Positions 18,775 to 32,561 of a DNA stretch of 64,000 bases are shown here, piece after piece. Position numbers and translations under genes: made by a program. Origin of the DNA: Anatilimnocola floriformis. GTDB lineage: Bacteria; Planctomycetota; Planctomycetia; Pirellulales; Pirellulaceae. The stretch is taken from NCBI RefSeq assembly GCF_024256385.1, contig NZ_JAMLFW010000001.1, positions 496,001-560,000 on the forward strand. Reading direction: 5' to 3'. The number at the start of each line of letters is the position of its first letter. The first letter of the stretch is position 1. The notes beneath the pieces are model-generated. The model did no database searches. It saw only the letters and a program-made list of their open reading frames with translations, and was not told the DNA's origin.

Positions 18775-18849
18775 AGAACATGGGTCCGCGGTAGGCGGCC
18801 GGCGAATGTTTTCCCGGCAGATCACTTTCTTGCTTCGGGAGCTTTCGGT

Positions 18850-19194
18850 ATGGCCATGGTTAAGATTGAGGCGATTGTTCGGCACCACCGGTTGGATGAA
18901 ATCAAGAACGCCCTGGTGGCGGCAGGTTTTCACGGCCTGACGGTCACGGAAGTGCGCGGTTTCGGCCGACAAAAAGGTCAGAAAGAAACGTATCGCGGTG
19001 CCGAATATAAGATCGACTTCATTCCCAAGTTGAAGATCGAGCTGGTCGTTCCCACCGAGTCGAGCGAAAAAGCCATCAGCTCGATCATCAAGACTGCTCA
19101 AACCGGCCAGATCGGCGACGGCAAGATTTTTGTTTCGGAAATCAAGGAAGCCATCCGCATTCGCACCGGCGAAACCGGCGGCACGGCTCTTTAA
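18850..19194 (+). CDS. glnB: Nitrogen regulatory protein P-II
   Basis: A 114-residue P-II signal protein that senses 2-oxoglutarate and ATP/ADP and controls nitrogen-assimilation proteins. The chain has the hallmark TVTEVRGFGRQKG, the T-loop with YRGAEY (Y53 here equals the uridylylated Tyr51 of E. coli GlnB) and the C-terminal signature GQIGDGKIFV. No amtB is adjacent, so glnB is used rather than glnK, but that distinction is not secure. GGGAG lies about 12 nt before the ATG. A sigma-54 promoter precedes it, and a GlnE-like protein is encoded 10 kb away. Confidence 0.95.
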   Translation: MAMVKIEAIVRHHRLDEIKNALVAAGFHGLTVTEVRGFGRQKGQKETYRGAEYKIDFIPKLKIELVVPTESSEKAISSIIKTAQTGQIGDGKIFVSEIKEAIRIRTGETGGTAL

Positions 19195-29507: not shown

Positions 29508-32500
29508 ATGGAAATTCGTACTTTGGTTTCGCTCCTCGATCAATCCAGTGACGTGGCGGAAACGCTCCAGGCCTGGCGGGTGAGCGATCCGGCCGCGGCC
29601 AGGCACGCGCTGCTCGACCTCGCCGATGGGGGCGTGCCGCTCGATCTGCTCGCCACACTCTGCTCACAGCTCGATACTCTGCTGCCGGAAACGCCCGATC
29701 CGCTCACCGTGCTCGAGGGAGTGCGGCAGTTCATTCTGGCTTCGCGCAGCCCGCTGTCGTTTGCAGCGCTCGTCGAGCGCGATGCCACCACGCTGCCGAT
29801 GCTGGTGCGAGTCCTCGCTTGGGGCGGCGTTTGGCGGGAAACGATTCTCCGCGATCCGGAAGCATTCGATCTATTGCGCTTGACCGAAGGCCAGCCGGTG
29901 GAACGAGCGACACTCGTCGCCGACGTTACCGCCGAAGCGACACACCTGCTCGACGAACGCTCGCAGATCTCGGCACTCCGCCGTATCAAACGTCGCGAGC
30001 AACTGCGCATCTTTTACGGCGAACGAGTCGGCAAACACAAGCCTGAGCTCGTCTGGCAGCAACTCACCTACCTGGCCGAAGCTCTCTTGGCCGGTGGACT
30101 CGCAGCTGCGCAGCAAAAATTGCAAGCGAGCAAAACGGCGACCGGTTCGCCGCGACGCGTCGTGCCGCTGGGGGCGGTTTCGCTCCTCGCGTTCGGTCGC
30201 TGCGGCGCGGGAGAACAAGATTACGGCGAGCGATTGCAACTGCTCCTTCTGCACGAAACGCTCCCCGCCGACGATGCTCAGCGCCGCGCAGCTGCTGATC
30301 AATACGAACGCCTCGCTCGGCAGCTCTTTCGGTTGCTCACGGAAAACACCGATCTGGGGATCGCCTACAAAGTCGAGCTGCAGTCGATTCCCAATCGCGA
30401 GACATCCCCGACAGTGATTGCCGCCAATGAAGCGGCAGCTCTCTTCGACGAATTCGGCCGAACCTGGCATCGGCAGAGTTTTACGCAGGCGCGCTGCGTC
30501 GCCGGCGATCGGCCATTGGCAGATTCGTTTCTGCAACAACTTCAACCGTGGGTCTTTCGCCGCCTGCTGTCGCGCGCCGATGAAGCAGGGCTGCGAGCAC
30601 TCAAGCGGCGAATCGTTCGCCGGGCCGAATTGGCCGCGGCTTCGGCAGAGAAGCACGATATTGAAATCGGCCCCGGCGGTTTGTTTGACTTCGAACAAAC
30701 CATTCAGTTTCTGCGCCTGCTCAGCGGCGGCGATCAGCCGCGCGTGCGACTTCCCGGCACGCTCGACGCCATCGCGGGTCTCGAGCAAGAAGGCTCGATC
30801 AGCGTACAAGAGCGCACGGCGCTCGAGGATGCCTACCTCGCTCTGCGCAAAGAATTGCATGCAGCGCAAACTTCGGCCAGCGACAGTGCCGCTGCGCGGA
30901 GCACGGGGCCATCTCCCGTGACTTACGAACTGCTTCGCGGTTTGCTGCAGGCGGCGTTTCCCGACGAAACCGATCCGCCGCCGGAAGTCGATTTGCTCCA
31001 GGCGCCGCATCCCACGGCAGCCGAGGCAGCGCAAATTCTCTCGCCCTATCGATTTCAGGACTGTGCGACGGCACTGCGGCATCTCAACGATCTGGCCAGC
31101 GAACGCACGGCCTTTTTGTCGACGCGGCGATGTCGTTATTACCTGTCGTCGATCATCGGCCGATTGCTTACTGCCATCGCCGCTACGCCGCAGCCCGATG
31201 TGACGCTGGCCAACCTCAGCCGCGTGAGCGATTCGCTCGGCTGCAAAGGCGTGCTGTGGGAATTGTTCCATTCGCATCAGCCGTCGCTCGAGCTTTACGT
31301 GCGCGTGTGCGGCTGCAGTCCCTATCTGTCGGACCTGATGATCACGAATCCAGGCATGCTCGATGAGCTGCTCGATTCGCTGCAATTGCGCCGACACCCG
31401 GAACTCGCCGAGCTGCAGCGGACTTGGCAGGAACTGCAGCGCGGAGGCGGACCAGCGTTGCCGAAGTTGCTCGCGCTCAAGGCTTCGCGCCATTTGCAGA
31501 TCGGCGTGCGCGATGTGCTGCAGCGCGAACCGATCGAAGCCACGCATCGCGCTTTGAGTGATGTTGCCGAAGTTGCGCTCGCTGTCGTCGCCCGGCAGGA
31601 GTTCGATCGCCTGGTCGAAAAGCACGGCAGGCCGATGATCGAAGAAGGCCCGTTCGCGGGAGAGCAGTGCGGCTTTGTGATTCTCGGCCTCGGCAAACTC
31701 GGCGGACAAGAGCCGAACTATCACAGCGATCTGCAAATCGCCTTTGTCTATGAAGCCGAAGGCTCCACACAAGGCGTCGAACGAGCGAAACGCGTGCAGC
31801 CGACGACGAACGGCCATTTCTTTACGCAACTCGCCCAGCGCGTGTTGAAAGAAGTTTCGCAGTCCACCCCGCAAGGACGATTGCATCCGCTCGAAGCGGG
31901 CCTGCGACCGCTGGGGACGGCTGGGCCGCTGGCAAATTCGCTCGCCGATCTGGCCGCTCACTTTCAGTCGGGCGAAGCGCCGCTCGCTCACTGGCTATCG
32001 CTCCTCAAGGCCCGCGCGATCTTCGGCCCCGCGCCGTCGCAAGCCACCGCGATGAATGCGGTCCGGCAATGGCTCACCGCACGACCTTGGCAGCAAGCCG
32101 ACGCCCGGCAGCTGTATCACGATCGCCTGCAACTCGATCAAGGCGCGGCGGCGTTCAATGTGAAGCGCGGCGTCGGCGGCACGCTCGATATCGAAACGGT
32201 CGTGCAACGTTTGCAACTGGAACACGCCCATCGGCATCCTCGCATTCTCGTACCAGGAACGCTCGCCGCGATCCAAGCCTTGGAAGAAGCCGGCATATTC
32301 TCGCAGACCGAAGCCGCTCGCTGGTCGGAATCGTATCGCCTGCTGCGACGCATCGAAGGTGGAATTCGGCTGCTGAATACGCGCGACCGGCACGTGTTGC
32401 CGGGCGATGGTGTTGATCTGCAGCGACTCGCGCTGCTGCTCGATTATCCTTCGCCAGACGACCTCCTGACCGCGTGCAAGCAAACGATGACCAGCAACCG

Positions 32501-32561
32501 CGAGCGTTTCCACGCCGCCTTTGCCGATGCCCTGCAGTGGCTCGAAGAACAGAATCAGTGA
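29508..32561 (+). CDS. glnE: GlnE-like glutamine synthetase adenylyltransferase with altered active sites
   Basis: A 1017-residue protein with the two-part organisation of GlnE, which adenylylates and deadenylylates glutamine synthetase under P-II control. Each nucleotidyltransferase domain normally has GGxEx4SDxDL. In the first (230-245) the pattern reads GRCGAGEQDYGERLQL, so both Asp are lost (R242, Q244). In the second (729-744) it reads GKLGGQEPNYHSDLQI: D741 stays but the second is Q743. Flanking signatures, including the helical regions with LFDFEQTIQFLRLL and VGGTLDIETVVQRLQL, are kept. It may be a regulatory protein without catalysis, or use an unusual mechanism. The P-II gene at 18850 is a likely partner. 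Confidence 0.85.
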   Translation: MEIRTLVSLLDQSSDVAETLQAWRVSDPAAARHALLDLADGGVPLDLLATLCSQLDTLLPETPDPLTVLEGVRQFILASRSPLSFAALVERDATTLPMLVRVLAWGGVWRETILRDPEAFDLLRLTEGQPVERATLVADVTAEATHLLDERSQISALRRIKRREQLRIFYGERVGKHKPELVWQQLTYLAEALLAGGLAAAQQKLQASKTATGSPRRVVPLGAVSLLAFGRCGAGEQDYGERLQLLLLHETLPADDAQRRAAADQYERLARQLFRLLTENTDLGIAYKVELQSIPNRETSPTVIAANEAAALFDEFGRTWHRQSFTQARCVAGDRPLADSFLQQLQPWVFRRLLSRADEAGLRALKRRIVRRAELAAASAEKHDIEIGPGGLFDFEQTIQFLRLLSGGDQPRVRLPGTLDAIAGLEQEGSISVQERTALEDAYLALRKELHAAQTSASDSAAARSTGPSPVTYELLRGLLQAAFPDETDPPPEVDLLQAPHPTAAEAAQILSPYRFQDCATALRHLNDLASERTAFLSTRRCRYYLSSIIGRLLTAIAATPQPDVTLANLSRVSDSLGCKGVLWELFHSHQPSLELYVRVCGCSPYLSDLMITNPGMLDELLDSLQLRRHPELAELQRTWQELQRGGGPALPKLLALKASRHLQIGVRDVLQREPIEATHRALSDVAEVALAVVARQEFDRLVEKHGRPMIEEGPFAGEQCGFVILGLGKLGGQEPNYHSDLQIAFVYEAEGSTQGVERAKRVQPTTNGHFFTQLAQRVLKEVSQSTPQGRLHPLEAGLRPLGTAGPLANSLADLAAHFQSGEAPLAHWLSLLKARAIFGPAPSQATAMNAVRQWLTARPWQQADARQLYHDRLQLDQGAAAFNVKRGVGGTLDIETVVQRLQLEHAHRHPRILVPGTLAAIQALEEAGIFSQTEAARWSESYRLLRRIEGGIRLLNTRDRHVLPGDGVDLQRLALLLDYPSPDDLLTACKQTMTSNRERFHAAFADALQWLEEQNQ

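Follow-up and report, generated by a model that had tools for sequence, protein, structure and literature searches.

A GlnE homologue with both active sites degenerate in Anatilimnocola floriformis, and its degenerate glutamine synthetase partner

Introduction

Type I glutamine synthetase (GSI), GlnE, P-II and GlnD form a classic bicyclic regulatory cascade. Lengsin, a vertebrate lens protein related to glutamine synthetase (GS), is described as being without GS activity. It resembles the case reported here in that a GSI-related protein is kept without this activity, but it is eukaryotic and has no degenerate GlnE partner.

Within GlnE, the N-terminal domain takes AMP off GS, while the C-terminal domain puts AMP on (PMC12409994). 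In the GlnR system, GS serves as a sensor of the nitrogen state and exerts its effect by binding to another protein; the pair of proteins that we propose below would be similar in sensing by binding, yet the GS of the GlnR system is active and no GlnE takes part (PMC9249791). MntA of the MntA/HepT toxin-antitoxin system belongs to the same nucleotidyltransferase superfamily as GlnE, but it is small and active, and it modifies a toxin; its two Mg2+ ions are coordinated by three Asp residues, two of them in the DxD motif, and a D39E,D41E change lowered its function (PMC7641770).

The window that we analyzed is a 64,000-nucleotide stretch of the A. floriformis genome (contig NZ_JAMLFW010000001.1, positions 496,001 to 560,000), and it bears a glnE gene at 29508..32561 on the plus strand. 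Its product is like E. coli GlnE in having two nucleotidyltransferase and two helical domains and in having P-II and GlnD upstream in the cascade. On the other hand, five of its six catalytic Asp residues are changed, its AT-N is shortened, and the only GSI of the genome is devoid of Tyr397. A search of titles and abstracts in the open-licence literature found no report of a conserved pseudo-GlnE/pseudo-GSI pair.

Results

The window protein is a GlnE homologue. The open reading frame runs from an ATG start to a TGA stop and is intact over the codons of its 1017-residue product. Pfam models PF03710 (GlnE; whole-protein E 2.6e-69) and PF08335 (GlnD_UR_UTase) each match twice, and each PF03710 nucleotidyltransferase domain is followed by PF08335, the arrangement that marks the GlnE homology family. 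In an AlphaFold2 model (mean pLDDT 87, pTM 0.69) both nucleotidyltransferase folds are retained, and the model matches the domain structures of E. coli GlnE with Z scores of 42.7 (1v4a) and 42.1 (3k7d). The best score against the NCBIfam bifunctional-GlnE equivalog is 342.6 bits, below the cut-off of 487, with no score of an intact planctomycete GlnE to calibrate it. Judged from its sequence, the protein is thus GlnE by homology, failing in two features of a working GlnE, namely the catalytic Asp residues and a modifiable substrate.

A 706-codon open frame (window 29871-31991, minus strand) lies antisense to glnE. Similarly long antisense frames are found elsewhere, a 745-codon one opposite the type III glutamine synthetase (GSIII) gene and another opposite rpoB, which suggests an effect of codon usage rather than a gene.

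A possible signal input to GlnE is the P-II protein encoded at 18847..19185 (plus strand), one of five P-II matches in the genome, whose T-loop Tyr is present in the sequence GAEYKIDF. GlnD is encoded by an 892-codon frame adjoining a P-II gene. With both GlnD and P-II encoded, the genome thus retains the genes of the first cycle of the cascade, and the loss of catalytic residues is limited to the second cycle.

Catalytic residues are lost at both sites. The initial annotation had reported degeneration of the two DxD motifs, and R242, Q244, D741 and Q743 are found exactly where it placed them. Site 1, in the AMP-removing domain, has the motif ERLQL (30228..30242, plus strand), with R242 and Q244 replacing the two Asp; site 2, in the adenylylating domain, has SDLQI (31725..31739, plus strand), where D741 is retained and Q743 replaces the second Asp. 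The damage extends beyond these motifs. The third Asp of each site is changed as well, to E290 at site 1 (30375..30377, plus strand) and to E796 at site 2 (31893..31895, plus strand). Aligned to D173/D175/D223 and D701/D703/D752 of E. coli K-12, the window protein therefore has R242/Q244/E290 and D741/Q743/E796. The genus was sampled by two species, the window genome (G000) and a single congener (G001); the GlnE of the latter is 71% identical over its full length and has the same six states, RQE at site 1 and DQE at site 2 (motif SDLQV). All six Asp residues are kept in 117 of the 136 rows of our GlnE alignment, which is partly redundant because some genomes entered it by two routes, and this conservation rules out chance as an explanation.

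It might be supposed that the pattern is an artefact of misalignment, of sequencing or assembly error, or of taking the wrong GS gene for the substrate. We give this next to no credence, as the motifs align ungapped, the independent genome of the congener has identical residues, and each genome of the genus has one GSI, orthologous by identity and position.

Judging by the motifs, D223 and D752 of E. coli are probably the counterparts of the third Asp of MntA. Given this equivalence and the metal ligands of MntA, site 1 of the window protein should be dead, and site 2 either severely impaired or dead. The carboxylates close to site 1 (E236, D238 and E241) appear out of register, and we see no clean substitute among them. 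Since site 2 keeps D741 and a carboxylate at E796, weak nucleotide binding or residual activity there is possible. One may thus imagine that site 2 still binds nucleotide and modifies another protein, or that AMP removal persists with other metal ligands. In favor of such altered catalysis, site 2 retains, besides these two carboxylates, 23 of the 29 near-invariant residues of its core, and site 2 is fully intact in some genera that have no GSI, which suggests that GlnE can act on another target. We nevertheless consider it improbable: the second DxD Asp is Gln in both species, MntA uses all three Asp residues to bind its two Mg2+ ions and is impaired even by the D39E,D41E change (PMC7641770), and site 1 lacks both DxD Asp and much of its core.

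Among 175 columns that are near-invariant in 116 intact relatives, both congeners retain 125 and lose 42. The losses fall most heavily on the core of the first nucleotidyltransferase domain, where 19 of 36 such columns are affected; the second core has lost 5 of 29, and the linker together with the AT-C helices, the best-kept part (43 of 49 kept), has lost 3 of 49. The earlier impression that the chain is otherwise well kept is thus only partly correct. In addition, compared with most relatives, AT-N is shortened by about 30 residues in its C-terminal part.

The GSI of the window genome is degenerate as well. A PF00120 search found one GSI and one GSIII, and no other GS, in each of the two species of the genus. 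The GSI gene lies outside the window and is an intact open reading frame of about 440 residues. Its product is orthologous to E. coli GlnA, from which it differs by E129K, E131Q, E212A, E220A, E327A, E357A and Y397N; the congener has the same pattern, but with E212S, E327Q and Y397R. Accordingly, the metal-binding glutamates 129, 131, 212, 220 and 357 are K, Q, A/S, A and A in the two species, and the adenylylated Tyr397 is Asn or Arg. Because this neighborhood is rearranged, the residues assigned to 212 and 220 are sensitive to the alignment, but our alignments consistently show no Glu at either position. Both species lack segment 155-184 and retain D50, H269, R321, R339, R344 and R359. Among the 142 columns in which 46 canonical sequences are invariant, both congeners retain 91 and both lose 40, the new state being identical in 29 of the 40. 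Indeed, most of the new states of GlnE and GSI are common to the two species.

The initial annotation had proposed to check Tyr397 of the GS, and it proved to be lost together with the metal ligands of the enzyme. This strongly supports its suggestion of a lineage in which the adenylylation reaction was lost, and we consider such a loss very likely.

We also considered whether this protein is a diverged paralogue, with a canonical copy elsewhere, and rejected this idea: the PF00120 search found GSI and GSIII only, and both identity and adjacency to GSIII support orthology. Identity to canonical GSI is about 45-50%, as opposed to 27-28% between the pseudo-GSI and paralogues. With TIGR00653 (cut-off 429.15 bits) the GSI of the congener scores 438.9, whereas that of the window genome, at 397.2, falls just under. 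Identity, the family model and the position beside GSIII thus indicate that the pseudo-GSI is a true GSI. In the congener it lies about 180 bases downstream of GSIII on the same strand, and canonical GSI also adjoins GSIII in two other genomes (G048 and G049). A 249-codon open reading frame without a Pfam match (L093:9113-9859, minus strand) lies between GSIII and the pseudo-GSI in the window genome, and is absent there in the congener. The active-site motifs of GSIII are retained in the genus, and the GSIII proteins of the two species share 91.6% identity.

Purifying selection acts on both degenerate proteins. Between the two congeners, dN/dS (Nei-Gojobori counts) is 0.14 for GlnE and 0.14 for pseudo-GSI, at a dS of about 1.6 that is near saturation, and 0.07 for GSIII. 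Unsaturated pairs of species from other lineages in which the proteins are degenerate agree with these values. For GlnE, the values are 0.13 in G011/G097 (dS 0.37), 0.08 in G082/G120 (dS 0.89) and 0.13 in G034/G108 (dS 0.55); for pseudo-GSI, they are 0.07 in G082/G120 (dS 0.69) and 0.14 in G034/G108 (dS 0.78). These low ratios, in the congeners and in independent degenerate pairs alike, indicate that both proteins are constrained. The claim that selection maintains GlnE is thereby borne out, and, as far as sequences can tell, the protein answers to the description of a pseudoenzyme, with catalytic residues lost and an open reading frame retained under purifying selection.

Still, it is plausible to ask whether we are observing a slow decay, in which GSIII took over and GSI and GlnE are relics with weak leftover constraint, caught midway through relaxed selection. 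GlnE and GSI do diverge faster than GSIII within the genus (each is 71% identical, compared with about 92%), the AT-N core of GlnE is eroded, and complete loss does occur, since 53 of 159 family genomes have no GSI-like match at E 1e-40 and 2 of 60 relatives have no GlnE match. We regard this explanation as unlikely, though it is the one among the alternatives that we take most seriously. Against it, the reading frames are intact (1017 and about 440 residues), several independent degenerate pairs give dN/dS of 0.07-0.14 without saturation of dS, most new states are common to both species of the genus, and pseudo-GSI and GlnE are retained together across several species of two other genera, g11 and g82.

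Loss of both GlnE sites recurs among relatives and is paired with changes in GSI. GlnE sites were surveyed in 60 relatives, nearly all of them one per genus, and most are intact. Both sites are degenerate in five genomes (G000, G001, G011, G013 and G038), and site 1 is degenerate in eight more (G002, G003, G006, G012, G014, G029, G034 and G036); G034 also has DDN at site 2, and for counting on the tree we treated it as having lost both. At least five independent changes are needed to explain the loss of both sites on a tree of RpoB from 58 genomes, also when only well-supported branches are considered. In the genus closest to that of the window on this tree (G004), GSI and GlnE site 2 are intact, while the N-terminal part of GlnE is cut by a contig end; the stem of the window's genus is therefore where both GSI and GlnE site 2 became degenerate. 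The substitutions may thus be called fixed within that genus, on the evidence of two species, but not in planctomycetes at large, as other lineages of the family lost their sites independently.

Because Fisher tests ignore phylogeny and overstate associations, we relied on a phylogenetically paired test. In six of six informative independent pairs, under most pairings, genomes that lost both sites (or GlnE itself) also lack the GSI Tyr or GSI altogether (median two-sided p 0.03, range 0.03-0.06). Moreover, GSII or GSIII is encoded in every one of the 15 genomes in which GlnE is degenerate or missing, compared with 27 of 44 genomes with intact GlnE, which is what would be expected if an alternative GS enzyme were a precondition for GlnE loss.

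Sampling of the family was widened to 159 genomes; the GSI readings leave out G097 and G158. Pseudo-GSI combined with a doubly degenerate GlnE was found in two species of g82 and in genus g11, where we read GlnE from five species and GSI from three. G169 is probably a further case, although its strongly diverged GSI may be a paralogue. Two species of g34, as well as G105, combine pseudo-GSI with a GlnE in which site 1 is dead but site 2 is complete or almost so.

There are exceptions to this pairing. In G007 (Y397F; L102) and G027 (Y397D; L111) the GSI Tyr is lost, yet GlnE keeps all six Asp; these might possibly be early stages in which the substrate changes first. Four lineages (G002, G003, G006 and G036; L016, L005, L066 and L032) have lost site 1 while site 2, GSI and Tyr397 are intact; adenylylation there would be irreversible by GlnE, unless AMP removal is done otherwise. 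Three species of genus g75 (G075, G119 and G155; L361, L362 and L363) have an intact GSI with Tyr397 and no detectable GlnE. In G151, an in-frame stop is flagged both in the GSI match (L366) and in the GlnE match (L326), and the two genes may have been broken together.

Genera without GSI keep the adenylylating site. In seven genera with no detected GSI (g12, g14, g29, g60, g69, g70 and g78), GlnE is dead at site 1 and reads DDD at site 2; the loci are L088 (G012), L082 (G014), L084 (G029), L337 (G060), L338 (G078), L335 (G070) and L342 (G069). In the GSI-less pair G012/G098, dN/dS of GlnE is 0.06. As site 2 is intact where GSI is missing, GlnE can apparently serve another target, and in these genera it may be a one-way AMP transferase acting on a new one, with GSII and GSIII as the obvious candidates. 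We considered the possibility that the adenylylation loop had been transferred to GSII in these genomes, and dismissed it, as inspection by eye of a nine-genome GSII alignment revealed no YDLPPEE-like Tyr adenylylation loop.

Discussion

Our results leave us highly confident that GlnE and GSI have degenerated together. The window GlnE would, with a probability of roughly 55%, be one half of a conserved non-catalytic GlnE/GSI pair, which is probably kept for binding or sensing. In this respect, the initial suggestion of a P-II- or GS-binding regulator without adenylylation seems plausible, given the purifying selection on the protein, its retained fold and the presence of P-II and GlnD.

The following course of events may be proposed. 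In the ancestor of the genus, an intact GSIII would have been able to supply glutamine, and the GSI/GlnE cycle would thus have been freed. GSI would then have lost its metal-binding glutamates and Tyr397, and GlnE the catalytic carboxylates of both the removing and the transferring sites. Both genes were kept full-length under purifying selection, presumably because each protein retains a non-catalytic job. GlnE might still sense the nitrogen state via P-II, GlnD and metabolites, and dock on the pseudo-GSI, and the two together might exert control through association, with the GSIII encoded next to the pseudo-GSI as the most plausible target. We infer three of these steps, namely that catalysis is absent, that GlnE and the pseudo-GSI are still in contact, and that GSIII is controlled, and we put forward GSIII as the target of the pair only tentatively.

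The main argument for continued joint action of the two proteins is that a degenerate enzyme and its degenerate substrate are retained together in several genera. It could be argued that they are kept for unrelated new functions, without any interaction, and that they lost their chemistry jointly simply because they shared the lost reaction. Each protein can indeed persist alone, GlnE in genera without GSI and GSI in g75 without detectable GlnE. We find such separate fates slightly more improbable even than altered catalysis, as the recurrent retention of degenerate GlnE alongside a GSI gene that is intact but encodes a degenerate protein (in the window's genus g1, in g11, g82 and g34, and probably in G169) is explained more easily by interaction. 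Several points do speak against the reading of a non-catalytic pair, namely the presence of D741 and E796 at site 2, the faster divergence of GlnE and GSI relative to GSIII, which relaxed constraint would also give, the nearly saturated dS and the sampling of the genus by two species, and the exceptions G007 and G027.

Extended to the whole of Pirellulaceae, this reading becomes speculative: the GS/GlnE cycle might have been repeatedly turned into a non-catalytic P-II-GlnE-GSI complex governing GSII or GSIII, while in GSI-less genera the adenylylating half might have been redirected to a new target.

In the lineage described here, the second cycle of the cascade has very likely lost its chemistry on both sides with both proteins kept, and comparable losses have occurred several times in one bacterial order. 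As natural replicates, they allow one to ask which roles remain for a modifying enzyme and its substrate after the modification ends, and the intact adenylylation site in GSI-less genera predicts an undiscovered AMPylation substrate. For annotation of these bacteria, the presence of GlnE need not imply control of GS by adenylylation.
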